This document shows positions 27,306-61,675 of a stretch of DNA of 64,000 bases, piece after piece. The notes below the pieces were generated by a model. It saw nothing but the letters and a program-made list of their open reading frames with translations, ran no database searches and was not told the origin of the DNA. The stretch is from Nanobdellati archaeon. Lineage in GTDB: Archaea > EX4484-52 > GLR71. Position 1 is the first letter of the stretch, and every line of letters starts with the position of its first letter. The position numbers and the translations under genes were made by a program. The DNA is taken from positions 1 through 64,000 of the forward strand of contig JAHYJR010000004.1 of NCBI GenBank assembly GCA_019429005.1. The letters are read 5' to 3'.

Positions 27306-27899
27306 CTATTTTAGATTCTTAAGATAATCAAAAAGACCCTCTGCAATCAGGTATGTTGGGAATGTAGGTATATCTATATCCAATTCAATCACTTCTTTAG
27401 GTGAAGAGGGAACATGAATAAAAACGGTTTCTATATCCTTATCTTTAATATTTTGAAGACAATTAAAATATGTGTAATTACATATGTATGTACCAGGATT
27501 GAAAGAAATCTTTGCAGGAACACCTTTATTTTTCAAGTTTTCAACAATATTGATTATATCTATTTCAGTCTCATATGCAATCTCTTTTGAGGAATCAATC
27601 TTTTACATTACCATTAGATTTCCATTATTATCTGGCATTTTTGTATGTTTGAAATTCAATCCAATTTTCTCAATCTTAATCATATTTATTCCTAACTCAA
27701 AACCAAAACCAATAATAAAATCGGGTTTGAATTTGTCAATCTTTTCTTTTAGAATAGTCCAACAATCAAAAGTCACAGGCAATTGAATCAAATCAACAGA
27801 TTCAGAATCAAACAGATTATATATACTAGACCCAACATCATATGAAGGATTGCTCTTTAATTTTCCGAATATTTCAAAAGAATAAAGTAAGATTCTCAT
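27306..27899 (-). pseudogene. pcp: Pyroglutamyl-peptidase I gene interrupted by one in-frame TAA
   Basis: The two open segments 27606-27899 and 27306-27602 are in the same frame, separated only by TAA at 27603-27605. Together they give 197 codons, about the normal pcp length. The catalytic residues look intact: Glu in KIEKIGLN, Cys in SFNPGTYICNY and His in VFIHVPSSP. Aligned by eye to known pyroglutamyl peptidases, the stop in NLMVM*KI falls where the family has Glu (PVDEKI), as from GAA to TAA. No frameshift is present. It is either a very recent nonsense pseudogene or a sequence error; the enzyme would remove N-terminal pyroglutamate from peptides. Confidence 0.85.
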
Positions 27900-27969
27900 A
27901 GAATTAATTGATTATTTAAAATTAATTAATCTTTTTACTTATTTGGTCATCAACTGATGTTTTAAGAAT

Positions 27970-28047
27970 TGGTGCTCCCGCCGGGATTTGAACCCGAGTC
28001 ACAAACGTGAGAGGCTTGTATGATTGGCCGGTCTACACTACAGGAGC
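27970..28047 (-). tRNA. tRNA-Glu (anticodon CTC)
   Basis: On the reverse strand the 5' half begins GCTCCTGTAGTGTAGACCGG and the 3' end closes CGGGAGCACCA, giving a 7-bp acceptor stem with one G-U pair. The anticodon stem CAAGC/GTTTG encloses the loop CTCTCAC with anticodon CTC, and the T arm is CGGG-TTCAAAT-CCCG. CCA is encoded (TGG at 27970-27972 on the top strand). There is no intron, unlike the other two tRNAs in the window. The body resembles other archaeal tRNA-Glu genes. Confidence 0.92.
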
Positions 28048-28154
28048 TTAATGCAATCTTTTTTCATTGATATTTTTAAAACTATCTATTAAATGATTCA
28101 TTTAAGAATCAGATTGAATGAACCATAAAAAACAGTATCTTAACATTCCAAACC

Positions 28155-28655
28155 TTAATATTTAATTGCCTTTAAAAACAAATTTTTTAATATTTCTGTA
28201 GATAACTTATAACCTTTATTTTCAGTTAATTTTTCTAAATTAAGATTTAAATTGAAGAAAACTAAATGTTTGGAATCTTCAAGTAAATAATCTTTAGGAT
28301 TCTCAAAAAAATTAGTTATATCAGCATAAATCCACTTTGGTTTCAATTCATATAAAACGGATTCAATATCATCATATTCTTTAACTGCAGTCAAATCAGT
28401 ATCTCTTGACCAATCACCATCCTTACAAGATCCCAAATTAATCGTAACTCTCTTATCAAAAAAAAACATACCTTCAACGAATTTATTTAAATCAGTTTCA
28501 ATCTCATCTAAAGTCCGGCCTTTAAAACTATATCCACCTCTTTCAATTAAAGGATGATAAAAATTAAATTTTAAATTAACATTGCCATACTTACAACTAA
28601 AATCTTTTTGAGGAATATCTATTTTTTTACATGCTGCATCTAAGATATTATTCAT
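28155..28655 (-). CDS. Hypothetical protein, 166 aa
   Basis: Not recognised. It is soluble and mixed alpha/beta with no signal peptide. Visible stretches are GGYSFKGRTLDEIETDLNKF at about 40-59 and VTINLGSCKDGDWSRDTD. It lies in a decay zone next to several gene fragments, but its own frame is intact. A function cannot be proposed from sequence alone. Confidence 0.6.
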   Translation of the reverse strand: MNNILDAACKKIDIPQKDFSCKYGNVNLKFNFYHPLIERGGYSFKGRTLDEIETDLNKFVEGMFFFDKRVTINLGSCKDGDWSRDTDLTAVKEYDDIESVLYELKPKWIYADITNFFENPKDYLLEDSKHLVFFNLNLNLEKLTENKGYKLSTEILKNLFLKAIKY

Positions 28656-28658
28656 AGT

Positions 28659-28793
28659 CTATAACACATTTCGAGGATTTAAACTGTGTATCTCAAGATT
28701 ACCTATTTTAGATAAATCTATCAAACCGACTTTATCAAAACCATACGCTTCTTTAATTGTATCATAAAAATATGCTATTTTAAATACCTTGAT
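28659..28793 (-). pseudogene. Possible gene fragment without start codon
   Basis: Between two intact small genes the reverse strand has a 44-codon open stretch with protein-like composition (IAYFYDTIKEAYGFDKVGLI, then DLSKIGNLEIHSLNPRNVL). It ends in TAG at 28659-28661. No ATG, GTG or TTG start exists in frame after the upstream stop. It may be a decayed C-terminus. Low confidence, because AT-rich non-coding sequence can mimic this over such a length. Confidence 0.25.
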
Positions 28794-28799
28794 TTAATA

Positions 28800-29243
28800 T
28801 TATTTTTCTAAATCATATATAAGATTTCCTTCTAAGCCTAATAAACGTGATATTTCTGAAGTTAAATAACCGGGTTCATCTAATTTGTCAACATCAAGAA
28901 CTCCAAATATTTCTTTTGGAAGTCTTTTTGGATTTTGTATAACACTTTTAATACCATAACCAGTTCCATTAATTTGTTTCATGAAATATTCAAGATCATG
29001 ATTTTTTGAATATTTTGAAAAATCTTTAGTTCCATGCATCTCCAAATGTTTGATATTTAAATCACACGCTTTTGCATAAGAATTAACAAACTTTGATCTA
29101 TTAATATATTTTTGATCAGGTATAATTTCAAAAATAATATGATTATTAATATTTAACTTTATAATTAAACCATCCTCAGACCAATCATATATATTTGAGT
29201 AGTTTTTCTCAAGAAGTCTTAATAATTCAAATGTACTTGTCAT
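28800..29243 (-). CDS. Hypothetical protein, 147 aa (intact paralogue of the neighbouring pseudogene)
   Basis: Not assignable to a known family. It begins MTSTFELLRLLEKNYSNIYD and ends with a helical DEPGYLTSEISRLLGLEGNL region. The whole length aligns with the broken gene just upstream (29339-29818), so the two are a tandem duplication. Shared features are the LLEKxYSxxYxW start, the HIIF/INII strand, a D-x-LNIKxL/CDSKIKTL segment, the GTxxFxxY helix and the KLEExGYL C-terminus. Cytoplasmic. Confidence 0.7.
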   Translation of the reverse strand: MTSTFELLRLLEKNYSNIYDWSEDGLIIKLNINNHIIFEIIPDQKYINRSKFVNSYAKACDLNIKHLEMHGTKDFSKYSKNHDLEYFMKQINGTGYGIKSVIQNPKRLPKEIFGVLDVDKLDEPGYLTSEISRLLGLEGNLIYDLEK

Positions 29244-29338
29244 AAATTCATATATAAAAATTAACTTTAAATCATTTTGGTTTTAAAAAAACAAAATTTT
29301 TAAACAACAAAATTTAATAATAGTTCGAACGACCCACT

Positions 29339-29818
29339 TTAATCTAAGTAGTTACGAGATATTTTCAACTCGTCTAAAATTGTTTCTTCAAAATCCGTAA
29401 AATCTAATATCTGTTTAAGTAAATATCCCTCTTCTTCTAATTTATTACAATCAATTAGTTTAAATACGTGTCCTGGAATTGTTTGCGGTTCATGTATATC
29501 TTTTTGAATCGCATAATCAGTTTCACTAAGTTTATCATCTAAATATTTAGTTAAATTAGGTTTTTCTTCCAAATACCTAGCAAAATTTACAGTTCCAATT
29601 ATCTGCAAAGTTTTAATTTTGGAATCACATAGATTTAGATAATCATTACAAAATCTTTTAGGTGTAAAACTAAAAGGACAATCTGCTTCATGTATGATAT
29701 TAATTTTTATACCGTTATCAAACTCTATTTTTATTTCTCAATTTTCACGCTCAGCCCAATTATAAACTTTAGAATATTCTTTTTCAAGAATTTCTAATAA
29801 ATCATTTGTATTTGCTAT
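29339..29818 (-). pseudogene. Broken tandem paralogue of the 147-aa gene
   Basis: In the frame of the 3' open segment the reading continues back to 29818 with only one stop, TGA at 29738-29740. The codon aligned with the paralogue's ATG is ATA (29816-29818): IANTNDLLEILEKEYSKVYN here against MTSTFELLRLLEKNYSNIYD in the intact neighbour. The stop lies in AEREN*EIKIEF, where a Gly (GGA to TGA) would fit the local NG-turn pattern. Two separate lesions, start codon and nonsense, make this a true pseudogene. The segment after the TGA could still be translated from an internal TTG. Confidence 0.75.
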
Positions 29819-29915
29819 AAATATAATTTTAAAAATTAACTTTAAATGATTTTGTTTACGGATTAAAAATAGCTTTAAACCCTCTCTCATAAAATAAACA
29901 GATTACATGATGTAA

Positions 29916-31709
29916 TCAAACAACCCGCTTAAACTTACGCTCTAACTCTGATACAGTCATTTCAATCAAGGTAGGTCTGCCGTGAGGACAGGTATATGGA
30001 TTATCTGCTTTAGAAAGGTCTTGAAGCATCTTATCAAGATATGGTAATGTTACCTCATCACCACCTTTAATTGCAGAGCGACAAGCAACACTTCTTGCAA
30101 TTCTTTCTTTTGATTCAAGTATTGATTTAATTTTCCCAGAGTCAATTAATTCTCCTAAGATATCATGCACAAGATTTGAGACGTCTTTTGAGTTTGAAAA
30201 AGCAGGTATTGCACGAACTGCAAATGCGTTTGTACCAAACTCTTCAATGTCAAAACCCAGTTTTTGAAAAACAGATAAACTAAATTTCAAGATCTCGGAT
30301 TCTTTAGCATTAAATTCGAGTATCTTAGTCTCTAATAAATTTTGAGATTTAGGTTTTTCCATATCAAGCTGTTTTATTACTTTTTCATATAAGATTCTTT
30401 CATGTGCAGCATGCTGATCTATTATATAGAAACCGCCGGAATATGATGCTAAGACATAGGTCTTATTTACAATTCCAAGAACTTTCATAATGGGAAAATT
30501 AGATAAGACCGCATTATCTTTTGTATCATCAGTAATATTTTCGTTGATTTTATTATTTAATTCAATAGACTTATCAATATTATTAACAGCAATATTTTTG
30601 GCTTCTACTTCAACCTTTGGTTCTTGTATATCAAGAACAGCTTGTGTTGATGATGATAATTCATATTTATTTTTAGCTACAGATTTGGTCGGACTGAAAC
30701 CAACTGAAGGTACAAGCACAGCATTTTTTAATGCCTGAGTAACTGAATCTTTAACAGCTTGAGATATTATATCTTCTCTTGTTTTTACAAACCTTATTTC
30801 CATCTTATTAGGATGCACATTAACATCAATAATTTTTGGATCTATCTCAATTGATATGACAAATATAGGATGCCTATGTTTTGGTAGAAGTGTCTTATAT
30901 GAACTGTAAATTGCATCTTGAATCATACGATCTTTTATGTATCTTTTGTTTATGAACAGTGATTGGTAATCTTTAGATGACCTTGTAATGGATGGAAGTG
31001 ATACATATCCAGATATTGATATCCCATCAATCTCGTTATCAATCTTTATCATATTAGATGAAATTTCTTTACCATAAACTGACATTATATTTGATAATAT
31101 ATCATCTGTCTTAGGTGATACAAGAATAACTCGACTATGATTTGATAGCCTAAAATCAATTTGATTATTCAAGAGAGAATAACGTGTGACAATGTCAATG
31201 ATTTTTCCAAGCTCAATTGATTCTGATTTCAAGAATTTCTTTCTGACTGGAACATTTGAGAAAAGCTCAGATACGGTTATTTTTGTACCTTTAGGTGCAC
31301 CGATTGGTTTTGATTCAATGAATTTAGAAAAATGAACAAGTAATCTAGTACCATCTATATCTCCAGGATTTGTAACCATTTCAGTCTTTGATACTGAAGC
31401 AATACTTGGAAGTGCTTCACCCCTAAAACCTAATGTATGAATTGAATAGAGATCATCCATATCTTTAATCTTACTTGTTGCATGCCTCTCAAATGAAGTT
31501 AAAGCGTCATCATAATACATACCGCAACCATCATCTGTAACAGATATTGCTTTTTTGCCACCATCTTCAAGTGCTATGCTTATGTTTTTTGCGCCGGAGT
31601 CTATTGCGTTCTCAATCAGTTCTTTTACGACAGATGAAGGTGATTCGATTACTTCTCCTGCAGCAATCTTTGATATTAAAGCATCATCTAGGCGTTTAAT
31701 TATAGGCAT
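29916..31709 (-). CDS. mutL: DNA mismatch repair protein MutL (endonuclease type)
   Basis: This 597-aa protein couples mismatch recognition by MutS to strand removal. The N-terminal GHKL ATPase shows KELIENAIDSGA at about 29-40, DDGCGM at about 59-64 and LGFRGEALPSI at about 93-103. After a poorly conserved linker at about 340-405, the C-terminal domain has DQHAAHERILYE near 430-441. This fits the DQHA(X)2E(X)4E metal motif of nicking MutL, and ACRSAIKGG and CPHGRPT motifs follow. It should therefore be an active latent endonuclease that needs no MutH. It lies 740 bp upstream of mutS's stop, on the same strand. Confidence 0.96.
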   Translation of the reverse strand: MPIIKRLDDALISKIAAGEVIESPSSVVKELIENAIDSGAKNISIALEDGGKKAISVTDDGCGMYYDDALTSFERHATSKIKDMDDLYSIHTLGFRGEALPSIASVSKTEMVTNPGDIDGTRLLVHFSKFIESKPIGAPKGTKITVSELFSNVPVRKKFLKSESIELGKIIDIVTRYSLLNNQIDFRLSNHSRVILVSPKTDDILSNIMSVYGKEISSNMIKIDNEIDGISISGYVSLPSITRSSKDYQSLFINKRYIKDRMIQDAIYSSYKTLLPKHRHPIFVISIEIDPKIIDVNVHPNKMEIRFVKTREDIISQAVKDSVTQALKNAVLVPSVGFSPTKSVAKNKYELSSSTQAVLDIQEPKVEVEAKNIAVNNIDKSIELNNKINENITDDTKDNAVLSNFPIMKVLGIVNKTYVLASYSGGFYIIDQHAAHERILYEKVIKQLDMEKPKSQNLLETKILEFNAKESEILKFSLSVFQKLGFDIEEFGTNAFAVRAIPAFSNSKDVSNLVHDILGELIDSGKIKSILESKERIARSVACRSAIKGGDEVTLPYLDKMLQDLSKADNPYTCPHGRPTLIEMTVSELERKFKRVV

Positions 31710-31814
31710 AACTTGAAATTATAGATTAAGATTTAAGAATTTATGTATTTTTATTTTTTGTGAAAAAGGTAATACACTAATAATAATCAAATAAAAAAAG
31801 ATTATAAAATTCGT

Positions 31815-32039
31815 TTAAGGGTAATTTTCTTTTGAAAGTGCTAGAGTTTTATTTGCATCTTCTATATTTTCAGTTATTTTTGAAACCATTTTATCAATTG
31901 CTTACTGGCTATAACTTAAAAATACCATTTTTAGTTTACTAAGATCCTCATTAAACTCTTCAATATGATATGCATATTGTACTCCTTTTTTTATTACCAT
32001 TTCATCTTCTTTATTTGGTTCATATTTCCTAGTTTTCAT
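31815..32039 (-). pseudogene. Small ORF interrupted by an in-frame TAA
   Basis: An ATG at 32037-32039 opens MKTRKYEPNKEDEMVIKKGV and runs 45 codons to TAA at 31902-31904. The same frame then continues 28 codons (AIDKMVSKITENIEDANKTL) to TAA at 31815-31817. Both halves have similar charged helical composition, so this looks like one 74-codon gene broken once. The family is unknown. It lies just downstream of an 81-aa hypothetical gene on the same strand. Alternatively the 45-aa part alone is the gene. Confidence 0.45.
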
Positions 32040-32063
32040 TAAATATTTTGAAAAAAGTGAATT

Positions 32064-32309
32064 TCAAGTAAGTTCAAATGTCTGTGAATATGATATATGC
32101 GGTATGCTTTCATTTTCGTTAGCATCATAGATTATTGTATATGAATTTTTACCAAGTAATTTTTGGATAATATCATCAGATTCAATAGCATCGTCTTCTG
32201 GAATAACGTAGACTGTCATTTTTTCAATACGTCGCCCATCTAGTTTTACAATTTGATCTGTAGCTTTACCTAGTTTTGAATCATCAGAACGTTTAATAAA
32301 TGTTACCAT
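32064..32309 (-). CDS. Hypothetical small protein, 81 aa
   Basis: Not recognised. It is a soluble protein beginning MVTFIKRSDDSKLGKATDQI with a charged MTVYVIPEDDAIESDDI middle and an aromatic C-terminus (YSQTFELT). A four-copy 16-bp AT-rich repeat lies about 22 bp upstream of its start codon and contains TTTATAAA boxes. The distance and orientation fit use of that repeat as promoter. Confidence 0.6.
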   Translation of the reverse strand: MVTFIKRSDDSKLGKATDQIVKLDGRRIEKMTVYVIPEDDAIESDDIIQKLLGKNSYTIIYDANENESIPHISYSQTFELT

Positions 32310-32331
32310 ACCGTAAGTATTTAATTATATG

Positions 32332-32395
32332 TTTATAAATCAATTTGTTTATAAATCAATTTGTTTATAAATCAATTTGTTTATAAATCAATTTG
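32332..32395. repeat. Four-copy 16-bp tandem repeat
   Basis: The unit TTTATAAATCAATTTG is repeated exactly four times with a 16-bp period between mutS and the 81-aa gene, followed by a partial copy. Each unit contains a TTTATAAA box, which reads the same on both strands and resembles an archaeal TATA element. The copy nearest the 81-aa gene is at the right distance for a leaderless start. The other copies may be spare promoters or simple slippage products. Confidence 0.95.
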
Positions 32396-32452
32396 TTTTG
32401 TAACAGAATTATATTGTTTTTCATAAAGGATTCAAAAAAGAAAATAAGGACT

Positions 32453-34993
32453 TCAACTAAACAAGGTCTTCTGTCTTGAGATCTTTTTCTTTGAGATGAT
32501 TTTGAAACCTATGTCTTTTACTTTTTCTTTTGAAGGAATAGATTCATTTCCAGTACCTTCACCTAAAAAGGTGTTTGACTCTAACATATCCTGGACTTCT
32601 AAAGCACGGTTAGTCACTTCTTCTGGAAGACCTGCAAGCTTTGCAACCTGAATACCATAACTCTTATCAGCTGAGCCTTTGACAACTTTTCTTAAGAATA
32701 TGATTTCTTCTGCAATCTCTTTTACAGATATGTGGTAATTTGCAGACTGCGGATAAAACTCTGATATCCGAGACATGACATGATAATGTGTTGCAAAGAT
32801 TGTTTTTGCCTTGATATTGTTCAACACATATTCTGCAACAGACCATGCAATACTCAAACCATCAAACGTACTTGTACCTCGACCAATTTCATCAAAGATA
32901 ATTAAACTTTTTGATGTCGCATTGTTCAATATGTTTGCAGTCTCATTCATCTCAATCATAAATGTACTTTGACCTGATGCAAGATCGTCATGTGCACCAA
33001 CTCGTGTAAAGATCCTATCAACCACACTGATTTTTGCAGATTTTGCAGGGACAAAACAACCAACTTGTGACATAAGAACAATCAATGCAACTTGACGCAT
33101 ATATGTTGATTTTCCGGCCATGTTAGGTCCTGTAAGCACGACAAAACATTCATTGTCATTATCAAGAATTGTATTATTTGGTATGAAAGATAAAGATGAT
33201 TGCATCAATTCAACAACAGGATGTCTTCCATCTATAATCTCAATTGCCTCAGTTTCATTGAGAGTTGGCCTGACATAATTATTTAGAACAGATATTTTTG
33301 AGAAAGATGATATCACATCAAGGCGAGATATTTTTTGTGAAATGTCTTGAATCTGTACAGTAAAATCTGAAACCTTACCGATAACCTCTTGAAAAAGATT
33401 ATATTCAATACCATTAATTTTTTCTTCTGCTCCAAGTATTTTTGATTCTAGTTCTTTAAGCTCTTCTGTTATGAATCTTTCAGCATTTACAAGCGTTTGT
33501 TTTCGGATATAATGATTCGGCACATCATCAGAATTCTTGTTTGTGATTTCAATATAATAACCAAAGACTTTATTGAAACGAATTTTCAAATATTTAATAC
33601 CTGTCTGTTCTCGCTCTTTATCCTCAATTAAGGATATGTATTTTTTACCGTTGCTTGAAATTTCTCGTAGTTCATCAAGCTCTTTATTATAACCTACTTT
33701 TATTATACCACCATCCCTTATAAGAATTGGTGGGTTTTCAGATATGGCATCATCAATTAGAGTTACAAGATCACTAAGACTATCCATTGATGAAATGTCT
33801 GAAATAAAGGATGAAGATTCTTTAAATGGTACTAATAATCTTTTTAATTTTGGAACAAGTAAAAGTGATGTTTTCAAAGAAACAATATCTCTTGGATTTG
33901 CGTTACCATATGAAACTCGTGATATGATACGCTCAATATCATGACAATCAGATAAGGTTATCCGTAAATCTTCAAGAACAATCATATTTTTAAAAAATAC
34001 TTCTACTGCAGAAAGTCTTGTATTTATTGAATCTGAATTTATAAGTGGTCTGACTATCCAGTTTCTAAGTAATCTTGCACCCATTGAGGTTACCGTCATA
34101 TCAAGACATTCAAGAAGCGTGCCTTTTGAGGTATTGTCAGATATGTTTGTGATTAATTCAAGATTTTTTTGCGTGCTTCGGTCAAGCATCATAAATTCAT
34201 CTGTTGAATAAACCTGTATCTTATTGATATGATTAAGACCGCGTTTTTGTGTGTCTTCAAGATAACCTACAAGAGCACCACAGGCCATGACTGATAAAGG
34301 AAGGTCGCTCAACCCAAAACCGTCAAGAGAATTGATATTAAAATGAGATATGAGTTTATCTTTTGCGATATCATAAATAAAATATTCATCTGGATAATCA
34401 TTAATAAAAAAATCAACATGACCTTTAAAAGATAATTTAAAACCATCTTTTGATATTGACCTTGGAACGATACATTCTTTAGGTGAAAATTTAGAGATTT
34501 CTGAAAGAAGCTTATCTTTACCTTTGACATGTGACGTCATAAATTGCCCTGTTGATATATCTGCTATCGCAATACCGTATTGATCATCTTTTGTTGATAT
34601 TGCTGCAATATAATTGTTCACTTTGTTATCGAGCATGTTATCATCAATTAATGTTCCGGGTGTTATCGTACGTACAACATCACGCTTTACTAGACCTTTC
34701 GCTTTTTTAGGATCTTCAAGCTGATCACAGATTGTTACATTATATCCTTTTCTGACAAGTCTTGAAATGTAAGTATCTATCGCATGATATGGAATTCCGG
34801 CAAGAGGTACTTCTCTATGTTTCCCACCACGAGATGTCAGTGTTATGTCAAGAAGTCTTGATGCGATTTTTGCATCATCAAAAAACATCTCATAAAAGTC
34901 GCCCATACGCGTCATAAGGATTGAATCTGGATATTTCTTTTTTATTGAAAGAATCTGCTTCATCATAGGCGTAAGTTCAGACGGATTTATCAT
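32453..34993 (-). CDS. mutS: DNA mismatch repair protein MutS
   Basis: This 846-aa protein recognises mispaired bases. The N-terminal mismatch-binding GDFYEMF at about 27-33 supplies the Phe-x-Glu wedge. The connector, lever and clamp domains occupy about 130-580. The ATPase shows Walker A LTGPNMAGKSTYMRQVAL, Walker B IIFDEIGRGTSTFDGLSIAW, and FATHYH. The length is that of a bacterial-type MutS1. With mutL on the same strand just downstream this gives a complete MutS1-MutL pathway. That pairing is known in only some archaeal groups and is thought to have come from bacteria. Confidence 0.97.
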   Translation of the reverse strand: MINPSELTPMMKQILSIKKKYPDSILMTRMGDFYEMFFDDAKIASRLLDITLTSRGGKHREVPLAGIPYHAIDTYISRLVRKGYNVTICDQLEDPKKAKGLVKRDVVRTITPGTLIDDNMLDNKVNNYIAAISTKDDQYGIAIADISTGQFMTSHVKGKDKLLSEISKFSPKECIVPRSISKDGFKLSFKGHVDFFINDYPDEYFIYDIAKDKLISHFNINSLDGFGLSDLPLSVMACGALVGYLEDTQKRGLNHINKIQVYSTDEFMMLDRSTQKNLELITNISDNTSKGTLLECLDMTVTSMGARLLRNWIVRPLINSDSINTRLSAVEVFFKNMIVLEDLRITLSDCHDIERIISRVSYGNANPRDIVSLKTSLLLVPKLKRLLVPFKESSSFISDISSMDSLSDLVTLIDDAISENPPILIRDGGIIKVGYNKELDELREISSNGKKYISLIEDKEREQTGIKYLKIRFNKVFGYYIEITNKNSDDVPNHYIRKQTLVNAERFITEELKELESKILGAEEKINGIEYNLFQEVIGKVSDFTVQIQDISQKISRLDVISSFSKISVLNNYVRPTLNETEAIEIIDGRHPVVELMQSSLSFIPNNTILDNDNECFVVLTGPNMAGKSTYMRQVALIVLMSQVGCFVPAKSAKISVVDRIFTRVGAHDDLASGQSTFMIEMNETANILNNATSKSLIIFDEIGRGTSTFDGLSIAWSVAEYVLNNIKAKTIFATHYHVMSRISEFYPQSANYHISVKEIAEEIIFLRKVVKGSADKSYGIQVAKLAGLPEEVTNRALEVQDMLESNTFLGEGTGNESIPSKEKVKDIGFKIISKKKISRQKTLFS

Positions 34994-35053
34994 GTTAAAG
35001 AATTAATGATTAAAATATTAAAGGTTTATTGTTGGAGGAATACTTAGAATTAT

Positions 35054-35509
35054 TTACTTATGATATTTCTCATTATTTAAAATCGTAAAACCTCGATATA
35101 TCTGTTCTAGAATCAATACCCTTGCAAGTTGGTGTGTAAAAGTCATAGATGATATTGATATCAATTTATCTGCTTTTTTCTTAACGTCATCACTAAAACC
35201 GTCAGAACCACCAATAAGGAAAGTCAAGTCATCATCAGAATCTAACAGCTTTGAAAGACCAACTGAATCAATTTTATCTCCTGAAACATCAAATGCATAT
35301 ATTTTAGATTGCGTTTTTGAGTCCAGTTTTTTTAGAATTTCTTGACCTTCTTTTTTAACTGTTTCAGATGGATTCTTATCATTATGTTCTTTCAATTCAA
35401 TAAGATTAAAAGTACTGTATCGTTCGATTCGTGATATATATTCACTTTCAGAAGACTTAAACATCTCTTGATTTTTTCCTATTGCTATGATTTGTATTGA
35501 TTTTCTCAT
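35054..35509 (-). CDS. rlmH: Ribosomal large-subunit pseudouridine-N3-methyltransferase RlmH
   Basis: This 151-aa SPOUT methyltransferase modifies a pseudouridine at helix 69 of 23S rRNA. Recognised blocks are an IQIIAIGKNQ N-terminus, FLIGGSDGFSDDV near 100 (SAM-binding knot), MTFTHQLARVLILEQIYRGF and the terminal NNEKYHK, equivalent to the conserved PYH end. The length is typical. RlmH is mainly bacterial but occurs in scattered archaea. It lies about 60 bp downstream of mutS on the opposite side of its start, on the same strand. Confidence 0.93.
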   Translation of the reverse strand: MRKSIQIIAIGKNQEMFKSSESEYISRIERYSTFNLIELKEHNDKNPSETVKKEGQEILKKLDSKTQSKIYAFDVSGDKIDSVGLSKLLDSDDDLTFLIGGSDGFSDDVKKKADKLISISSMTFTHQLARVLILEQIYRGFTILNNEKYHK

Positions 35510-35620: not shown

Positions 35621-35637
35621 TTAAACAAAGTAGTTAT

Positions 35638-36575: not shown

Positions 36576-36587
36576 TAGGTGTTTAAA

Positions 36588-42048: not shown

Positions 42049-42417
42049 CTAATTTTCTACTTCATCTTTAAGATCAATGCCACCTGCTAATTTATTTGCA
42101 TGATTGCCTTTTGTCAAATCATGCGGAAATCTTTTCCCATACTCAGCCATGACCTCATCAATTGCTTCTTTTGAATTAACATCACAAAGATATGATACTT
42201 TCATTATAAGGTACATCATATCACCTATGAAATTTTTAACATCATCATGATTTTCTGCAATCAGCTTCTGTTGTGTTTCAACATCAACCCATTTAATTAT
42301 GTTCCAAAACTCGCCAATTTCCTAATTCATATTTAAAAGCAAATCTTTGATAGAACCTGGTGTGTTACAATCACGCTCATCATTAAACTTTTTTATAATA
42401 TCTTGAGTATTTTCCAT
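42049..42417 (-). pseudogene. MazG-like nucleotide pyrophosphohydrolase gene with an in-frame TAG
   Basis: From ATG 42415-42417 one frame runs 122 codons to TAG 42049-42051, broken only by TAG at 42322-42324. The protein would read MENTQDIIKKFNDERD, then LLLNMN*EIGEFWNIIKW and a C-terminal helix pair (DDVKNFIGDMMYLIMKV). MazG-type enzymes have an EExxE/EExGE metal motif exactly there, so the TAG replaces the first catalytic Glu (GAG or GAA to TAG). The rest of the frame is clean, with KRFPHDLTKGNHANKLAGG at the end. This is a single-lesion pseudogene unless TAG is read through. Confidence 0.75.
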
Positions 42418-42486: not shown

Positions 42487-42933
42487 TTAAAAAAAAAGCC
42501 AACTATTTTGTTTTCCAAATTTAGTTTTTATCAGAGCATAAGGACCTTTTAATTTTTGACCACTTAAATTAAACAAAATCTCTTTATCTTCAAACTTTTC
42601 TAATACAAATGTGCCGTTATCCCAAATTACCACACTACCCGCACCATATTGACCTTCAGGGATTGTACCCTCAAAAGATGCATATTCAAATTGATGGTCT
42701 TAGACCCCCCTATTGCAAGACGTTTAATACCACTATTTGTTGGAGGTTCTTTAGGAATAGCCCTGCTTTTGAGTAAACTATTAAGCTCAAGTCTAAAATC
42801 ATAATGCACGTGCGTTGCTTTGTGCTCATGCACTACAAAAATTGGATGTTTTATATTAAAAAACGTCAGAAATATCTTGTTTAACCAAACTTTTTGAAGT
42901 CATAGGATTCTTTGAATTATTAAAAACCACCAT
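42487..42933 (-). pseudogene. LigD-type DNA 3'-phosphoesterase gene, frameshifted and interrupted
   Basis: Reverse-strand pieces clearly encode the 3'-phosphoesterase module of LigD systems: FVVHEHKATHVHYDFRLELN, then KSRAIPKEPPTNSGIKRLAI, and in another frame DHQFEYASFEGTIPEGQYGA and VVIWDNGTFVLEKFEDKE. Lesions: a frame change near 42860 separating the N-terminus, a G6 run at 42705-42710 (top-strand C6) that breaks the frame, and TAA at 42700-42702 where the family has Glu (V-E-D-H). It trims 3' ends at breaks in intact relatives. No LigD ligase or Ku is nearby. Confidence 0.8.
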
Positions 42934-42972
42934 AATCCACCATATTATTTTTATAGTCATATAAAAATTATA

Positions 42973-44948: not shown

Positions 44949-45073
44949 GCCGAAGTGGCTCAGCCTGGTTAGAGCGCTAGACTCATATGCGTATGAGTGA
45001 TGACTACAATTGTAGGATGATATGTTTGCGCTAAGAAATCTAGAAGCCGCGGGTCCAAATCCCGCCTTCGGCA
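44949..45073 (+). tRNA. tRNA-Met (elongator, anticodon CAT) with a 50-nt intron
   Basis: The acceptor stem GCCGAAG/CTTCGGC, D arm GCTC-AGCCTGGTTA-GAGC and T arm GCGGG-TCCAAAT-CCCGC are perfect. The anticodon stem CTAGA (44977-44981) pairs with TCTAG (45039-45043), with anticodon CAT at 44984-44986. An intron at the canonical 37/38 site spans about 44988-45037. The exon-intron junction contains a perfect inverted repeat ACTCATA-TGCG-TATGAGT, so the anticodon is paired with the intron before splicing. CCA is not encoded. The body matches archaeal elongator Met better than Ile(CAT). Confidence 0.9.
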
Positions 45074-53513: not shown

Positions 53514-53601
53514 ATTGAGCTATTATGTGTAGAAGCTTTTTTATATGTTGAGTACAATCTTAAAAAAATTTTAAAAAAATAAAAAAGAAGTGATATTTAA
53601 A

Positions 53602-54045
53602 TCACTCTTTTGCTTCAGATTTTGAATCAGCAGATTCATCTTTAGTTTCTTCAGGAGCAATACCTAAAAGTTCTTCCAAAGATTTTGTACCTGCTTTTGA
53701 AATAGACACATTAACTTGAGCAACATCTTCAGAAATTGTGTTACCCCTTATCATCTTTCGTCTTTTAACACCTTTACCTATAGGTTTATATCCAAGACCG
53801 CCTGCAAGATAAATTCTTTTTCTTACAGAGCCCATAACATCTTTACGCATAGGTGTTCCTGCGTTATCTGAACCACCTCTTATAACAAGAGTATAACCTA
53901 TAAGTCCAAGTAAAGCACCATCAATAGTATCATCAATTTTTTTACCAATAAAAGGTTTAAAAACAACTTTATCTTCAATTTCTTTTTGATAAGACTTTCC
54001 TGTCTTTGGATTATTAATAACAAATTTAAAAACCATAACAATCAC
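53602..54045 (-). CDS. rps6e: Ribosomal protein eS6
   Basis: This 147-aa protein has the eS6 core: VFKFVINNPKTGKSYQKEIE, GKKIDDTIDGALLGLIGYTL, IRGGSDNAGTPMRKDVMGSV, GVKRRKMIRGNTISEDVAQV. The usual start is the Met at codon 4-5 (MVFKF). An acidic tail (EETKDESADSKSEAKE) extends past the core. It follows eL15 by six bases on the same strand, so the two share a transcript. Confidence 0.95.
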   Translation of the reverse strand: MIVMVFKFVINNPKTGKSYQKEIEDKVVFKPFIGKKIDDTIDGALLGLIGYTLVIRGGSDNAGTPMRKDVMGSVRKRIYLAGGLGYKPIGKGVKRRKMIRGNTISEDVAQVNVSISKAGTKSLEELLGIAPEETKDESADSKSEAKE

Positions 54046-54051
54046 TTAATT

Positions 54052-54636
54052 TTATTTACCCCTATTCTTGTTTGCTCTAAGACTTGGTCTCATCTTTTCA
54101 ACACCAATACCTTTAGACCTTACAAGACCTCTTGATTTCTTACCTGCAGATGTAAGCCCTCTAAACACTCTTCCAGTGTTTGCAGGTCCACAAATCCATC
54201 CTAACGTACGATCAGACTGTATAGCTGGGTGATTCTTATCAAGAAGAATTGCTTCATACCATAGATGTTGTCCATCTTCAGAAACAAAATATGAATTTAA
54301 AAGTTCAAGATTTGGATATTTTTTTGCTACACGTTCTTCTGCAATTAATTGTCTTGATTTCTTAGGTGTAAATCTCTTAAGACCAGATCTTTTAGGTCTT
54401 CTACCTGCTAGATCATGAGCTCGCTCTCGACCACCTTTAGGCACACGCACTCTTGCCATAACAATACCTTGTTTAGCTTTGTATCCAAGAGTTCTAGCTT
54501 TATCTATCCTAGTTGGTTTTTCCACCCTTAGAACAGCAGGCTCACGCCTAAATTTAATTAATCTCTGCTGCCATAAAGCACCAAGATTTTTTTTTGGTTG
54601 TTTCCATGTTTCATTTATATATTTATAAAGTCCCAT
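54052..54636 (-). CDS. rpl15e: Ribosomal protein eL15
   Basis: 194 aa from the ATG at 54634-54636 (MGLYKYINETWKQPKKNLGA). A GGAGG Shine-Dalgarno lies about 9 nt upstream, although the frame opens further at 54678. Conserved blocks are TRIDKARTLGYKAKQGIVMA, RRPKRSGLKRFTPKKSRQLI, LLNSYFVSEDGQHLWYEAIL and RGLTSAGKKSRGL. It binds 23S rRNA in the large subunit. First gene of the eL15-eS6 transcript, with a structured leader upstream. Confidence 0.96.
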   Translation of the reverse strand: MGLYKYINETWKQPKKNLGALWQQRLIKFRREPAVLRVEKPTRIDKARTLGYKAKQGIVMARVRVPKGGRERAHDLAGRRPKRSGLKRFTPKKSRQLIAEERVAKKYPNLELLNSYFVSEDGQHLWYEAILLDKNHPAIQSDRTLGWICGPANTGRVFRGLTSAGKKSRGLVRSKGIGVEKMRPSLRANKNRGK

Positions 54637-54785
54637 CAAATTCGCCTCCATTTTTACGAATCTAATCCCGTTCAGCAAACCTTTTTAAAGGCGGCTATAA
54701 GCCATGCCACATACTAGGAGCTTCTCAGAAATTTGAGAATAACTATTATTTGTTATAATAACAATTTTATAAAGGTTTGGGATAA
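54637..54785 (-). promoter_or_regulatory. Promoter and structured leader of the eL15-eS6 transcript
   Basis: On the reverse strand a CCTTTATAAAATT TATA box at about 54763-54775 should start transcription near 54745. That leaves a leader of roughly 110 nt. It contains a TTCTCA...TGAGAA hairpin (about 54723-54740) and a GC-richer segment TGGCATGGCTTATAGCCGCC with a GGCT/AGCC stem close to the GGAGG site. Ribosomal protein leaders often carry autoregulatory structures; this is inference from position. Confidence 0.4.
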
Positions 54786-54865
54786 ACCATAGACTTTTAA
54801 TGAAATTAGGTATTACATATTGATAAATAGTAAGATTTATAAAAGATTTCCTTAGTATTACACGC

Positions 54866-55837
54866 ATGCATTCAGACGTTTTAGAGATATTAGGTATGAT
54901 AAAAAGACCTCAAAGAGACGGAGTATTGTATTTATTTCCAGAATATGGACATCTTGAAGAGACACTTATGGATACAGCGTTAATAAAACCGAATACAAAT
55001 ACATCTTCAAGAAATACATATTTCATTAATCCGGAAACAGAATCACATTATATTGCAAAGATTGAAAGGGATGATACTACAGAAGTTAGGCAATGCTTTG
55101 GATACCCACAATTTAATCAATATAATATGACACTTATTGAAATTTGTATAGAAAGAATCTTATCTAAACTAATAAGCTTCGAAGATGACATAACTACAAT
55201 TGAATTTGAAAAACCAATTGGATATTATGCTAATGATAAAATACGAACTGGCTTTTTCAAATATGAAAATAGGCCACAAATTACGTTTGAACAATTAAAA
55301 CCACAATTTCAAGATATGACTCAAAAAATATTAAAACAAAAAAATGTTTTAAACAAGATAATAAATACAATAACATATACTAATGAATATATGCAAGCTA
55401 TTGAAACATATAGACCATACAATTTTCTAGATATGATTACATCTTTGAATTCTATTGAATATAATGATAAAGAAGAATTGATTTTTCAAGATGATAAAAA
55501 ACACACAACGTTTTTCTTTGATTTTGAATTCAGTAATATCAATATACCTACATATGAGATTGAAAAAATAATAGATCAAGATTTAATCGCAATGACGAAA
55601 AATCTTGAAAATATACAAAAATTAAATCAAGCTGGAAACGATATAGATGAACTTGTTTATGTTCGTAAATACATACTGTCTGAATTAGAACAAGCTAGTC
55701 CTATATTAAGCGACAGAGTTAAAACAGTACTTAAAGATACAGGTTATTTCGAAGGACATATTCATACATATGGACCTGGATTTGATATTGTAAAACAGAT
55801 ACCTACATTAAGCCCAGATAGTTTGATTATAGATTAA
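54866..55837 (+). CDS. Hypothetical protein, 323 aa
   Basis: The family is not recognised. It is a soluble, acidic, mostly helical protein starting MHSDVLEILGMIKRPQRDGV. YIAKIERDDTTEVRQCFGYP at about 68-87 could be a kinase-like beta-strand with Lys, and KHTTFFFDFEF near 205 a DFx-type loop, but no convincing catalytic loop is seen. An ATTTATAAAAG box centred about 25 nt before the ATG indicates a leaderless mRNA. Divergent from eL15. Confidence 0.65.
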   Translation: MHSDVLEILGMIKRPQRDGVLYLFPEYGHLEETLMDTALIKPNTNTSSRNTYFINPETESHYIAKIERDDTTEVRQCFGYPQFNQYNMTLIEICIERILSKLISFEDDITTIEFEKPIGYYANDKIRTGFFKYENRPQITFEQLKPQFQDMTQKILKQKNVLNKIINTITYTNEYMQAIETYRPYNFLDMITSLNSIEYNDKEELIFQDDKKHTTFFFDFEFSNINIPTYEIEKIIDQDLIAMTKNLENIQKLNQAGNDIDELVYVRKYILSELEQASPILSDRVKTVLKDTGYFEGHIHTYGPGFDIVKQIPTLSPDSLIID

Positions 55838-55964
55838 GACAATTTAAAAAAGACATTTTATACATAATTTTAAACATCACATTTTATCAAACATAACAAA
55901 CATTTTAAAATTTAAAACATCAGTATCTTAATAGTGCTAGATATTTCTAAAATAGTGATGATAA

Positions 55965-56501
55965 ATGAAAATAAATATACAAATTGATACAAATAATGCA
56001 ATTAAAAAAGCACTTGCTGATGATAAAGTAAAAAGTCTTATTGCAGATGATAATAAATTCTTAAGTTCTGCATTCACAACAATTGATACAAACATAAACT
56101 CAATAGATAGTTGGATTATCAATTTGTTTGATAAAGAAACAAAAAATATAACAAGTATACATGTATCATATGATACAATTGATATTAAAGAACCATCACC
56201 AGTTGCAAATCTTAGTGAAATTGAATCAATTGATATTGATAAGATCTTGATAACTTGTGAAAAAGCAATTGAACTTGCAATCGCTGAAAATGAAAAAGTC
56301 AATGGTAAAATTCAAAATAGCAAAATATTTATTACACTACATAATAATCAAGACCATACTCGAGAATGTTGGACTATAAGCTTATTAGGTCTAAATCTTA
56401 ATGCACACATAATTAAAATTGATGCATACGATGGCAAAATATTAAGTTCTAATGTGAAAAATCTTATGGATGGAAGTAAAGTAATTAATACAAAAAAATA
56501 G
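55965..56501 (+). CDS. Hypothetical protein with possible PepSY-like C-terminus, 178 aa
   Basis: Not securely assigned. It has no signal peptide. The C-terminal 60 residues (CWTISLLGLNLNAHIIKIDA, then YDGKIL) resemble the strand-turn-strand of PepSY/YpmB-like modules, where a W-x-V strand is followed by IDAxxGKIL. The N-terminal part is acidic and Ile/Asp-rich. It lies just upstream of the broken aspartoacylase-like gene, with 7 bp between, and may be co-transcribed with it. Confidence 0.6.
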   Translation: MKINIQIDTNNAIKKALADDKVKSLIADDNKFLSSAFTTIDTNINSIDSWIINLFDKETKNITSIHVSYDTIDIKEPSPVANLSEIESIDIDKILITCEKAIELAIAENEKVNGKIQNSKIFITLHNNQDHTRECWTISLLGLNLNAHIIKIDAYDGKILSSNVKNLMDGSKVINTKK

Positions 56502-56508
56502 TTAAAAT

Positions 56509-57426
56509 GTGATATAAATCGAGCCAAAAATAGAATACCACGAAATTCCAAGTGAATATAAGAAAATTGTAAGCTATACCTTTGGCCATGGCAGACCAAA
56601 AGTCTATATACAGGCAGCAATACATAGCAATGAAACTATTGGTTCTATCGTCCTTGAAAAACTTATTACGGAACTTAAAAAAGTTAAAGATATTAAAGGG
56701 ACAATTACAATCGTACCTTTTGCAAACCCACTTAGTCTTGGGAAAAAACATCTTGGACAAAATATAGGTCGTCATGATATTGAAACTATGAAAAATTGGA
56801 ATCGGGGATTTCCAGGAAACAAAAGAGGCGATATTGTTGAAAGACTTTGTTTCGCACTCAATGACATGTTTCACGATGCAGACTATGTATTTGATCTCCA
56901 CAATATGAACGTGTGGAAATCTGTTATATATAGCATTAATACAAAAATAGATGATATAACAAAAAATATGGGTATGAAATACATTGAGATAAGTAACAAT
57001 TCACCAAAAAATTGTCTCAGATATATATGTAATGAAAATGGCACGTGGTGTACAACCTATGAACTTGGAAACCCTTATTTTGTAAACCCTGAAGACTATG
57101 AAGTTATCAAAAATTCAATATTAAGTACACTAACCACAATTGGCTGTATAACTCAATATGAAATTATGAAAAGCCTATATTATTTCAAAAAAGAAGATAA
57201 ACGATCACTTTTCTCAAAAAATAAAGCTTTTGTTTTCCTACCAACACCACCAAAAACGGTTAAAAAAGGTGAATTAATATACAAACAAGTAACAGGAGAA
57301 CAAGAAAAAAATATATATTCAAAAGACCATAACCTACTTTTAAGATCTAAACTTGTACATTTCAGTCCGAAAGATGAAGTTCTTATTGATATGATAAAGA
57401 AGACGAAACTTAACAGGTTGTATTAA
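56509..57426 (+). pseudogene. Aspartoacylase/succinylglutamate-desuccinylase-like gene with a broken start
   Basis: One frame encodes about 302 residues: IEPKIEYHEIPSEYKKIVSY, then PKVYIQAAIHSNETIGSIVL with the HxxE zinc motif, FDLHNMN with the second zinc His, and a full C-terminal domain. The coding part starts at ATC 56518, immediately after TAA 56515-56517. The only upstream start in frame is GTG 56509, giving GTG-ATA-TAA. No ATG, GTG or TTG follows until ATG 56788, which would omit the zinc site. So the gene has an early nonsense codon or has lost its start. From 56788 a 212-residue product without the metal motif remains possible. Confidence 0.7.
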
Positions 57427-57506
57427 ATATAAAAATTTAGTCTTTTATAAGGATATAAAGGTGTTTTTACAAAAGATATATATACGTTACGGTTCTAAAT
57501 TAATGT

Positions 57507-57593
57507 ATGGAAAACACTACAGATGCAAATATGATTTATTCTGGAATCGTTTCTCTATTTCTAATAATGCTAGTAGTTATTCTGGTGCTGTAA
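57507..57593 (+). CDS. Tiny single-pass membrane protein, 28 aa
   Basis: ATG 57507 opens MENTTDANMIYSGIVSLFLI, continuing as a hydrophobic helix to TAA 57591-57593. A GATATATATACG box centred near 57478 would start transcription at about 57503, so the mRNA would be leaderless with ATG at or near +1. An overlapping 45-codon frame from ATG 57503 is less convincing because it is not hydrophobic. The family is unknown; small membrane regulators of this size are usually missed in annotation. Confidence 0.5.
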   Translation: MENTTDANMIYSGIVSLFLIMLVVILVL

Positions 57594-57596
57594 TTC

Positions 57597-57663
57597 GCAC
57601 AAGAATTCGTTACATATTTCTGTACATAACAAAAATATAATATTTTTCTGAAATTTCTTGTGC
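57597..57663. other. Long inverted repeat, possible small structured RNA
   Basis: GCACAAGAA (57597-57605) and TTCTTGTGC (57655-57663) are perfect complements. They enclose a second hairpin AAAAATA-TAA-TATTTTT and a TACA...TGTA pair. It follows the 28-aa ORF by three bases and could be its 3' structure or terminator, or an independent RNA. The 57427-57769 gap holds nothing else clear besides these two elements and a GGTATATAAAT box at about 57680. Confidence 0.4.
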
Positions 57664-57769
57664 TTTCAAAAGGTAGCTTTAGGTATATAAATTTAAAGGG
57701 TATTAAAACATTATAATTGAAAAAAAATATGGAGATTTTATTAGTATCAAAAATGGTAAAAATGCAATA

Positions 57770-58093
57770 ATGCTTGATTATTACGAATTTGAACTTTTAG
57801 TATCAAAATACCTTGAAATGTTTGAATTTAATAATGAGCCACGTAGATGTGCTTATGACCTTTTGAACTATGATTATAAAATCTGCGAAAATGTGACATA
57901 CCGTGATAGAGAAGCTCTTATGATTATTGAAAAAAATATGAGAAAACGTGGTAATAATGGTATTGTTGAGTCGTTGGGACATGTTACAATTGCAAAAACT
58001 GATTTTGATGATGTGCTTTCGAAACTAGGTTATACTAAAAAAATGGAAATTATTAAACCATCTAAAATATATCAGATAGGAATTGAACCATGA
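57770..58093 (+). CDS. Hypothetical protein, 107 aa
   Basis: Not recognised. It is a helical protein with YLEMFEFNNEPRRCAYDLLN and KPSKIYQIGIEP at the end. The same frame is open upstream for about 20 more codons (IEKKYGDFISIKNGKNAIML) and looks coding there too, but has no standard start codon. A GGTATATAAAT box at about 57680-57690 would start transcription near 57708, at the beginning of that extension. The N-terminus is therefore uncertain. Confidence 0.6.
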   Translation: MLDYYEFELLVSKYLEMFEFNNEPRRCAYDLLNYDYKICENVTYRDREALMIIEKNMRKRGNNGIVESLGHVTIAKTDFDDVLSKLGYTKKMEIIKPSKIYQIGIEP

Positions 58094-58137
58094 AAACAAA
58101 ATAACAATTTTTAACTTTATCAGCACAATATCTTATA

Positions 58138-59358
58138 ATGCAAGGAATGATGTGTGTAAGGTGTAAAGGAAAAGGGCTCTGTGGTAGAAACAACTGTCAG
58201 ATACTTGAAAAAACTAAAGCCTTAAAGACAATTACAGCACACATAAAAAAAGATTTTTCTGGTGTATCACCACCATCTATTTTTGTTGGAAGAATAGGAT
58301 ACCCAGATGTGTTTATGGGAACACTTGCACCTGTTGATGAGAAATACATAAATATTTGTGATGATGTCAAAGGCTGGTTTAAAAATAATATAAATATTGA
58401 TGATATCGTAAACATAAGAAGCCAAATGATAAATTCAAGAGCAAAAGTAAATGTTAAAAATACAAATAGATTCAAAAATGATATGCAAGAAATTGCAGCA
58501 TCAAACAAACCAATTGAAATTGAGGCAAGCTATAAAAAACCGCTTAATGTAACAATAAATTTGTATGAAAGAACGGCACCAGTTGGTCCAATTGGTGATC
58601 TTGAGAAATTCACAGTTTGCCAAAATATCAGCATATCTGGGAAAATTGATAAAATCATATCTGATACAGACCTTAAATCAATCTATTCGATAAATGAACT
58701 ATACAAGAAAAAAATTGACGAAAACATAATTACAAAACTCTTTTCTTCAGGAACGCTTGGCGTACAAAAAGAAAGAAAACTTGTACCTACAAGATGGGCA
58801 ATAACTGCTGTTGATGATATTTTAGGGAAAAAACTTATAGAAGATGTGAAAAAATTTGAGATTGTTGATGATTTCTATGTTTATTCAGCTGAATATCTTG
58901 GAAACCATTTTGAGATTATTTTAATACCTTCTATATGGCAATTTGAAAACATTGAAGTTACATATTCAAAAAGTTTCTGGAACCCAACGAATGACATTGT
59001 AATCTATGCAGATTATGAGAATTATACCGGTCGAAAAACGTATGCCTCTAATGTGACAGGTGCATATTATTCTGCAAGACTTGCCGTTCTTGAAAAACTA
59101 TCAAAGGTCAAAAGACAAGCTTCAGTTCTTGTATTAAGAGAAATATATGATGATTACCACACACCTCTTGGAGTATGGATAATACGTGAAACAGTTAGAG
59201 ATGCATTAAAAGGAAAACCTCTTAGATTCCAATCTTTTGAGGGTGTAAAAACATACTTAAAAACAAGATTGAAAACACCAATTGATGTATTTGTTAAAAA
59301 AAGTAAAGTCTTAAAAGAGTCAAAAGAACAGAAAAACCTTTTTGCATATTTAAAATGA
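58138..59358 (+). CDS. DNA repair protein Nre with PCNA-interacting tail
   Basis: This 406-aa protein belongs to the archaeal Nre family (NreA/NreB). The N-terminus CVRCKGKGLCGRNNC gives a zinc-binding cysteine set (about 6, 9, 15, 20). GVSPPSIFVGRIGYPDVFMG, NRTAPVGPIGD-like ERTAPVGPIGD and LVPTRWAITAVDD are family hallmarks. The last nine residues QKNLFAYLK form a PIP box for PCNA, as in other Nre proteins. Nre acts in a DNA damage response with PCNA. Start could be the first, fourth or fifth codon Met. Confidence 0.92.
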   Translation: MQGMMCVRCKGKGLCGRNNCQILEKTKALKTITAHIKKDFSGVSPPSIFVGRIGYPDVFMGTLAPVDEKYINICDDVKGWFKNNINIDDIVNIRSQMINSRAKVNVKNTNRFKNDMQEIAASNKPIEIEASYKKPLNVTINLYERTAPVGPIGDLEKFTVCQNISISGKIDKIISDTDLKSIYSINELYKKKIDENIITKLFSSGTLGVQKERKLVPTRWAITAVDDILGKKLIEDVKKFEIVDDFYVYSAEYLGNHFEIILIPSIWQFENIEVTYSKSFWNPTNDIVIYADYENYTGRKTYASNVTGAYYSARLAVLEKLSKVKRQASVLVLREIYDDYHTPLGVWIIRETVRDALKGKPLRFQSFEGVKTYLKTRLKTPIDVFVKKSKVLKESKEQKNLFAYLK

Positions 59359-59435
59359 AAAAAATCATAAAAAAAAGATATAATACAATATTATTATTTA
59401 AAATGATTCTTATAGTACATTAATTCGCAAAAATT

Positions 59436-60068
59436 GTGATAAATATGAGATTTAATTATAAAGCTGAAACTGTTGATGACAGAGTCAGCAAGATAAACAT
59501 ATTTATTAATCAGTATAGTACTATTTTGGAAATTAACACAGCTATTAGAGATAAAGCTTTAGAATTGATAGATTATCTAAAAAAAGACTATGATTACAAA
59601 GAATTCTTAACAAACACAAAAAAAAGTAGTGAAAGCTATGCCGCTGGAGCACTTCATGCAGCTGAAATATTACTTAAGGAAAATACAGATTATGATAACT
59701 CTTTAAGACATCTTTTGGAACAGAAATATAGAATCTGTAAAACATCAACTAAAATTCGCTCAAATTCAATACTGTTATTTTATAGCTCAAAAAGGATTAA
59801 TAAAATTAAAAAACTTGCTAATATATATTCAGAAATCATTTCAGAAAATAATACAATTGGTGAAAAAATAGATGAAACTATAAATTGGCTTAAAATCTAT
59901 AAGTTACCATATCTTGTAAAAAATAATTTTAATGAAGAAACAGTAGCTAGTGCAATTGTCAGTGCAGTTTTAAAATACAATAATATTCCTTTCGATATAG
60001 AACTGTTAGATATACCTGAAACTAATTTTGATTATAATATATTCCTAGAAATTATAACTATATTATAA
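59436..60068 (+). CDS. Cyclin-fold, TFB-like protein lacking a zinc ribbon
   Basis: This 210-aa all-helical protein has two repeats spaced like the cyclin folds of transcription factor B. Repeat one contains AIRDKALELIDYLKK and SSESYAAGALHAAEILLKEN. Repeat two contains EKIDETINWLKIYKLP and NEETVASAIVSAVLKYNNIP. The A-x-A-L-x-A-A and V-A-S-A-I-V-S-A-V-L helices match the conserved TFB helix after 'SIAAAALY'. The N-terminal zinc ribbon and B-finger are absent. It may be a TFB-derived regulator or another cyclin-box protein. Family membership is an inference from helix pattern only. Confidence 0.45.
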   Translation: MINMRFNYKAETVDDRVSKINIFINQYSTILEINTAIRDKALELIDYLKKDYDYKEFLTNTKKSSESYAAGALHAAEILLKENTDYDNSLRHLLEQKYRICKTSTKIRSNSILLFYSSKRINKIKKLANIYSEIISENNTIGEKIDETINWLKIYKLPYLVKNNFNEETVASAIVSAVLKYNNIPFDIELLDIPETNFDYNIFLEIITIL

Positions 60069-60240
60069 TTAAATCGTAATTTAATCAAAAAAATACTTTT
60101 TCTGCCAACAAACTATTATATTTTGCAAACATTGCCAAATTTATTGAAAAAACCACTAGAATTCTAAAAACAATACAGTTAAATGCCTTAAAAGATGCTG
60201 TTTTATTACTAAACACCTATTTGTATTTTAGGTGATTTGA

Positions 60241-61675
60241 TTGAGAGACACAAAATTAGGTTTTATAACTAAATAAAATATGTCACGTGTTGTTGACTTT
60301 TATGAAATAACAATGTCAAATGGATATTTCCAAGAAAATATGCATGAAGATACTGTTACATTTGATCTTTTTGTGAGGAATCTTCCTAAAAACAGAGGAT
60401 ACCTTGTCTCAGCTGGACTTGAACAGGCATTATCCTATCTTGAAAACATGACGTTTTGTGAAGACGCGATAGAACAATTAAAAGATCTTCCAAATTATGA
60501 TTTTAAAGATGATTTCCTTGATTATCTTGAAAAATTTGAATTCAAAGGCGATGTCTATGCAATAGGTGAAGGAAACTTAGTCTTTGGTCAAGAACCAATA
60601 CTTAGAATTACTGCACCAAGAATAGATGCACAACTTGTAGAATCCTATCTACTTACAACGATAAATCACCAAACTATGATTGCTTCAAAAACGTCAAGGA
60701 TTGTTCAGACTGCAGATAATAAAGTGGTAGTTGATTTTGGTTTAAGGCGAGCTCATGGACCCTATAGTAGTGTTTTAGGTTCAAGGGTAGCATATATAGC
60801 GGATGTCAAGCAACATCAAACATGTTTACAGCAGGTGAATTCGGCATACCACTCTCTGGAACTATGGCACATTCATGGGTAATTAGTTTTGATAGTGAGC
60901 TTGAATCTTTTCAAAAATATGCTAAAACATATCCAGACAACACAATAGCACTCATTGATACATATGATCCTGAAATAGGTGCACTAAATGCGTCAAAGCT
61001 CGGTGAAAAATTAAAGGATGTAAGACTTGATAGTGGAGACTTTGTAAAACTCTCAAAAAAAGTAAGAAAAATACTTGATTCAAATGGTGCAAGTCATGCG
61101 ATAATAACTGCAAGTAATGATCTTAATTAATATAAGATTAATCAGCTGTTAAATGAAGGCACTCCAATTGATAGCTTTGGTGTTGGAACAGACATGATGG
61201 TGTCAAAAGATGTGCCAGAATTAAGCGGTGTGTATAAGCTTGTCGAAGATGTGGATAATAAAAGGGTAATCCAGTGCCTAAGATTAAGTTGAGTGAGGGC
61301 AAGATAACATACCCATGTAAAAAACAGGTGTTTAGGATTGAAGATGCAGACAGTATATATGTTAAAGATGTAAATGGCTCATAAAAATTGTCCGATATGT
61401 GGGGTGTATGCAGACAGTATATATGTTAAAGATGTAAATGGCTCTTGAATATGAAGATGTGAATGAGATGTATGACAATGCAAGACCTTTGCTTGTAAAG
61501 GTGATGGATAAAGGTCATAACATATCTGAAATACCCGAACTAAAAACAATACAGAATACATTACAGACTGAACTTTCAAGACTGACTGCTGAATATAAGA
61601 CAATAAGAAATCCTAAAATATGTTGTTGAGATATCGCCAGAACTTAGAAATCTTGTGTTGGAACTTAAAGGATGA
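60241..61675 (+). pseudogene. pncB: Nicotinate phosphoribosyltransferase gene, multiply disrupted
   Basis: Pieces in several frames reconstruct one NAPRTase: VVDFYEITMSNGYFQENMHE, LRRAHGPYSSVLGSRVAYIA, then GIPLSGTMAHSWVISFDSEL and VRLDSGDFV, then FGVGTDMMVSKDVPELSGVY, then KITYPCKKQVFRIEDADSIY, and NISEIPELKTIQNTLQTELS. Lesions: a possible TAA at 60274-60276 before the ATG at 60280, one base lost near 60802, TAA at about 61128-61130 in SNDLN*YKI where the family has Glu, one base lost near 61272, a duplicated segment at 61344-61444, and another lost base near 61620. The NAD salvage function from nicotinate is certainly gone from this copy. Confidence 0.9.
61344..61444 (+). repeat. 37-bp direct repeat inside the pncB pseudogene
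   Basis: A 37-bp sequence beginning ATGCAGACAGTATATATG occurs at 61344-61380 and again, identical, at 61408-61444, separated by 27 bp. The intervening bases include codon-like sequence (AAAAATTGTCCGATATGTGG) that could encode the end of a CPxC-type domain of NAPRTase. A local duplication during decay is the simplest reading; no transposase or terminal repeats are present. Confidence 0.9.

Follow-up and report, generated by a model that had tools for sequence, protein, structure and literature searches.

Pseudogenes have been surveyed in 64 prokaryotic genomes, archaea included (PMC522871), and the dynamics of their extinction have been studied in Salmonella (PMC2916853). Events of the kind described here are therefore well known from bacteria and archaea: like the young pseudogenes of those studies, our loci are accessory genes with stops, frameshifts and short duplications that can still be read and that have intact homologues elsewhere. 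They differ from the surveyed cases in coming from a DPANN-like lineage and in including an NAD kinase, a gene that is near-universal in the order. In some ciliates UAA and UAG are reassigned to Glu, and the stops that fall on Glu positions in four of our genes resemble that code; here, in contrast, intact genes still end in the same stops, and almost no shared gene contains one internally. The readthrough known in archaea is that of selenocysteine and pyrrolysine (PMC8211752), which likewise places an in-frame stop inside a conserved gene. Our loci depart from it in that the stop is not conserved, relatives carry Glu, all three stop codons are involved, frameshifts accompany them and no suppressor tRNA was seen.

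The window analyzed is a 64-kb stretch with a GC content of 29% that forms the start of a 141-kb contig, in a draft genome of 1.08 Mb (15 contigs, 93.6% complete). This is the single genome available for its genus, and the relatives compared belong to the same family and the same order. A conserved 627-aa protein has named matches of at most about 45% identity, to Nanosalinarum and Micrarchaeota, and on this basis we call the genome DPANN-like. Family searches used translated frames read with X at in-frame stops.

A sequence-only reading of the window had grouped seven loci under one pattern, a clean gene broken by an isolated stop, and had ascribed it to recent decay under AT-directed mutation. 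All seven stops are present in the frames given (Table 1). Our analyses indicate, with a probability of about 90%, that the loci are recent pseudogenes produced by ordinary gene decay during genome shrinkage. The common pattern did not survive, since lesions and homologue support differ between loci. The stop is a single lesion in pcp; LigD-type phosphoesterase and pncB carry several, of which the frameshifts had been partly noted. Pcp, the MazG-like gene, the phosphoesterase, pncB and the broken paralogue of a 147-aa protein each have an intact homologue or paralogue elsewhere and a lesion within the conserved region. The codon-composition scan marks these window remnants as coding.

Table 1. 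Broken genes, candidate remnants and one intact paralogue in the window
Feature	Position	Strand	Lesion or state
pcp (pyroglutamyl peptidase) pseudogene	27306..27899	-	TAA 27603-27605 at family Glu
Intact 147-aa paralogue	28800..29243	-	open reading frame
Broken paralogue of 147-aa protein	29339..29818	-	TGA 29738-29740; start ATA 29816-29818
Small frame between mutS and mutL	31815..32309	-	TGA 32064; TAA 31902
MazG-like pyrophosphohydrolase pseudogene	42049..42417	-	TAG 42322-42324
LigD-type 3'-phosphoesterase pseudogene	42487..42965	-	TAA 42700-42702; frameshift near 42708
AspA/AstE-like frame	56518..57426	+	otherwise open; TAA 56515 just upstream
pncB (nicotinate phosphoribosyltransferase) pseudogene	60280..61626	+	TAA 61128-61130 at Glu

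The test for decay was run on the MazG-like gene only, the other broken genes being without close orthologues. Its frame has no Pfam hit and weak family matches, and a solved pyrophosphatase is among its relatives. The TAG stands where the EExxE motif has its first Glu, a position encoded by GAG in three and GAA in one of four orthologues (three from the same family, 81 to 84% identical, and one from G011, a genome of the same order, 67% identical). Relative to its counterparts in the sister genus, the gene shows 17 to 21 amino-acid-changing and 38 to 45 silent codon differences, compared with 3 to 5 and 35 to 46, respectively, within the sister genus, an excess of changes on this lineage with Fisher P values of 0.007 to 0.012. 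Eight changes, the stop included, lie at sites where the four relatives agree. Selection on the MazG-like gene is relaxed, and the extra changes are not what a programmed stop or an isolated sequencing error would produce. A TGA reported inside the gene in G005 and G008, which had looked like a hint of recoding, proved to be their natural terminator.

Alignment to intact homologues bore out the earlier proposal that the stop takes the place of a family Glu in four genes, by orthologue codons for the MazG-like gene and the phosphoesterase and by alignment for pcp and pncB. The phosphoesterase (PF13298, 3.1e-36) is intact in 17 relatives and present in 18 of 34 genomes of the order; the stop position is GAA or GAG in 10 of 12 orthologues and CAA or CAG in the other two. 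Its further lesions comprise a frameshift in a G6 run, a W to R change and a decayed N-terminus. In pcp (PF01470, E 5.7e-31; 4 of 61 genomes searched), the stop falls on a Glu shared by solved homologues and G060. The Glu, Cys and His active-site positions can still be read on both sides of the stop and there is one lesion, so that readthrough or a sequencing error could still explain pcp taken alone. The pncB remnant matches PF17767/PF04095 and TIGR01513 (1.8e-118), and its stop is placed on Glu by solved structures and distant homologues. It also carries at least two frameshifts, near 60783-60816 and near 61280, and a 64-bp tandem duplication (61344-61474); the gene is present in 2 of 34 genomes, with an intact homologue in G011.

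The remaining three loci fit the original description less well. For the 147-aa family, the TGA and the paralogue support both stand: the broken copy is 32% identical to its intact neighbor over 151 aa (E 3e-24), a protein that itself has no Pfam match. The TGA aligns with a Leu, however, and the start codon has changed from ATG to ATA, a second defect. The small frame between mutS and mutL does contain the reported TAA, along with a second in-frame stop, and its codon composition is coding-like; a search of 34 genomes returned no convincing homologue and hence no intact copy elsewhere, and the frame is either a broken gene or short orphan ORFs. The claim that an aspartoacylase-like gene is broken by a stop is not borne out. 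The frame matches PF24827 (8.7e-21), and its alignment to relatives begins at 56542, nine codons downstream of a TAA that is probably outside the gene. The defect is instead a missing start codon, with ATG, GTG and TTG absent from the first 90 or so codons. Three frames are without a standard start, and a comparison that looked for regular ATA or ATT starts was noisy.

Outside the window, the codon-composition scan followed by Pfam searches covered a 400-kb sample of the genome and brought up further broken genes, for a GNAT protein, a radical SAM protein, an Asp/Glu racemase and NAD kinase. Genes common to two relatives, compared over 464 kb, are nearly all intact; the clear exceptions are the MazG-like gene and an EamA-like transporter, which is frameshifted at C11:99723. 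Remnants backed by homology or paralogy number five in the 64-kb window against four in the 400 kb sampled elsewhere, a difference with a binomial P of about 0.004, although these remnants were the reason for choosing the window. Several apparent stops inside genes in the comparison with relatives were set aside as they sit in flanks, antisense frames or repeats. In the scan, two hits (L092 and L102) were discarded for falling in runs of N, and L094, a TGT gene first marked as a gap, extends past the end of the stretch examined and was not counted as broken. A small conserved protein of the relative G002 (L133:5567-5971, 79% identical to L110:1422-1829) is interrupted by one stop, at a Trp position, in that genome only, indicating that such breaks are not confined to the genome studied here.

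The earlier suggestion of genome reduction is plausible. The NAD kinase remnant (C11:13476-13730) shares 58% identity with a gene of G011 and has two stops, on Gln and Leu positions, with its upstream part frameshifted or gone; no intact NAD kinase was detected in this genome, whereas each of the order's seven high-quality genomes has the gene. NAD synthetase also went undetected, the genome yielding weak partial matches only, inside 625- and 632-aa frames. Together with the broken pncB, these results suggest that the organism has abandoned NAD(P) synthesis and depends on an outside source, with the proviso that missing draft sequence could hide genes. An outside supply would have made pncB and NAD kinase dispensable. 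That the whole NADP route was recently lost, leaving NAD(P) to come from a partner cell, is a more doubtful extension; if true, it would be host dependence caught partway through, and NAD(P) supply offers a testable dependence on the partner.

The following course of events would account for the remnants. In a small and probably host-dependent archaeon, some functions (NAD salvage, peptide salvage, nucleotide clean-up and a repair accessory) may no longer be needed. Their genes would then be broken by single nonsense substitutions or small insertions and deletions, by a short tandem duplication or by loss of a start codon. With no selection against such lesions and with mutation biased toward A and T, the copies would stay readable until deleted. 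Presumably no product is made from the broken genes, and the breaks are likely to be recent. The AT-directed mutation proposed by the sequence-only reading is supported by the low GC content of fourfold sites: at 0.13, this genome is the most AT-rich of the three compared, samples of two others from its family giving 0.24 and 0.38. The types of stop fit random nonsense mutation given the codon usage, about 55% being TAA. Decay is, first of all, the ordinary cause of what looked like a recoding signal; it also provides a freshly broken gene set from a little-known archaeal lineage, in which automatic annotation would present several truncated enzymes as working genes.

One possibility with a substantial, though less than even, chance is that many of the broken genes were failed horizontal acquisitions that selection never fixed, the remnants recording turnover of foreign genes and not ancestral erosion. 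Third positions of the MazG-like gene differ from the sister genus at 39 to 49%, where the median among shared genes is 60%, and its breakage may mark the failure of a horizontally shared gene instead of the loss of an ancestral function. Perhaps the same applies to pcp and pncB, given how few genomes have them, and a survey of 64 prokaryotes found pseudogenes enriched among transferred genes (PMC522871). The phosphoesterase and NAD kinase, on the other hand, look ancestral from their distribution in the order. Failed acquisition is compatible with decay and differs from it only in where the genes came from. Apart from these loci, HTH/transposase-like fragments (L105:325-753 and L110:188-604 in this genome, L138 and L143 in G002) are 92 to 95% identical between genera, where shared proteins have a median near 50%, which suggests recent mobile-element traffic; the G002 copy of one fragment carries two stops.

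A mutational bias from G to T, caused by unrepaired 8-oxoguanine, seems an unlikely source of the Glu-to-stop changes. Glu is the residue replaced at four of the six TAA or TAG stops with inferred ancestry, compared with 18 to 31% expected, an excess chosen post hoc whose P value (0.01 to 0.08) varies with the mutation model, and the MazG-like gene also has a W to C change via G to T. The sample is small and selected, however, the remaining MazG changes are of other types, and the emphasis on Glu and G to T in the sequence-only reading does not generalize, with Gln and Leu replaced in NAD kinase and Leu in the 147-aa paralogue. Loss of 8-oxoguanine repair is disfavored as a driver, the genes for endonuclease III, an Ogg-like protein and an N-glycosylase/DNA lyase that scores above its curated cut-off all being open. 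The G-to-T signature is not secure.

Assembly or sequencing errors are very unlikely to explain even some of the stops and frameshifts. The genome is a draft, several genes have one lesion and two frameshifts lie in homopolymers, as would suit such errors; yet the lesions sit in accessory genes while the long mutS (846 aa) and mutL are clean, the MazG-like gene has its extra amino-acid changes and pncB its 64-bp duplication.

That the stops are read through, or that UAA and UAG are decoded as Glu to give full-length proteins, is highly improbable: four stops do fall on Glu with the frame readable on both sides, but the aligned codons are Glu in four MazG orthologues and Glu or Gln in 12 phosphoesterase orthologues, other stops replace Leu and Gln, the stops are accompanied by frameshifts, the MazG-like gene is under relaxed selection, shared genes are almost all without internal stops, TAA, TAG and TGA each also end intact genes, and a search for tRNAs with UUA, CUA or UCA anticodons, incomplete in its detection because many tRNAs have introns, found none. 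The conclusion in favor of decay over a reassigned codon accordingly holds, on intact orthologues, a stop that they lack, the MazG excess and this tRNA result.

Many tRNAs of this genome have introns in the anticodon loop. In two others, tRNA-Lys(CUU) (L080, C13:106755 onward) and tRNA-Ala(UGC) (L081, C11:276174 downward on the minus strand), the apparent intron lies within the T-loop (GGTTCAAA...AAATC). A probable intron-containing tRNA-Gly(UCC) that both tRNA searches missed lies a short way downstream of the pncB remnant, at about 61782-61970 on the plus strand of the window. Another intron-containing tRNA, with a CAU anticodon, lies at 44949-45073 on the same strand.
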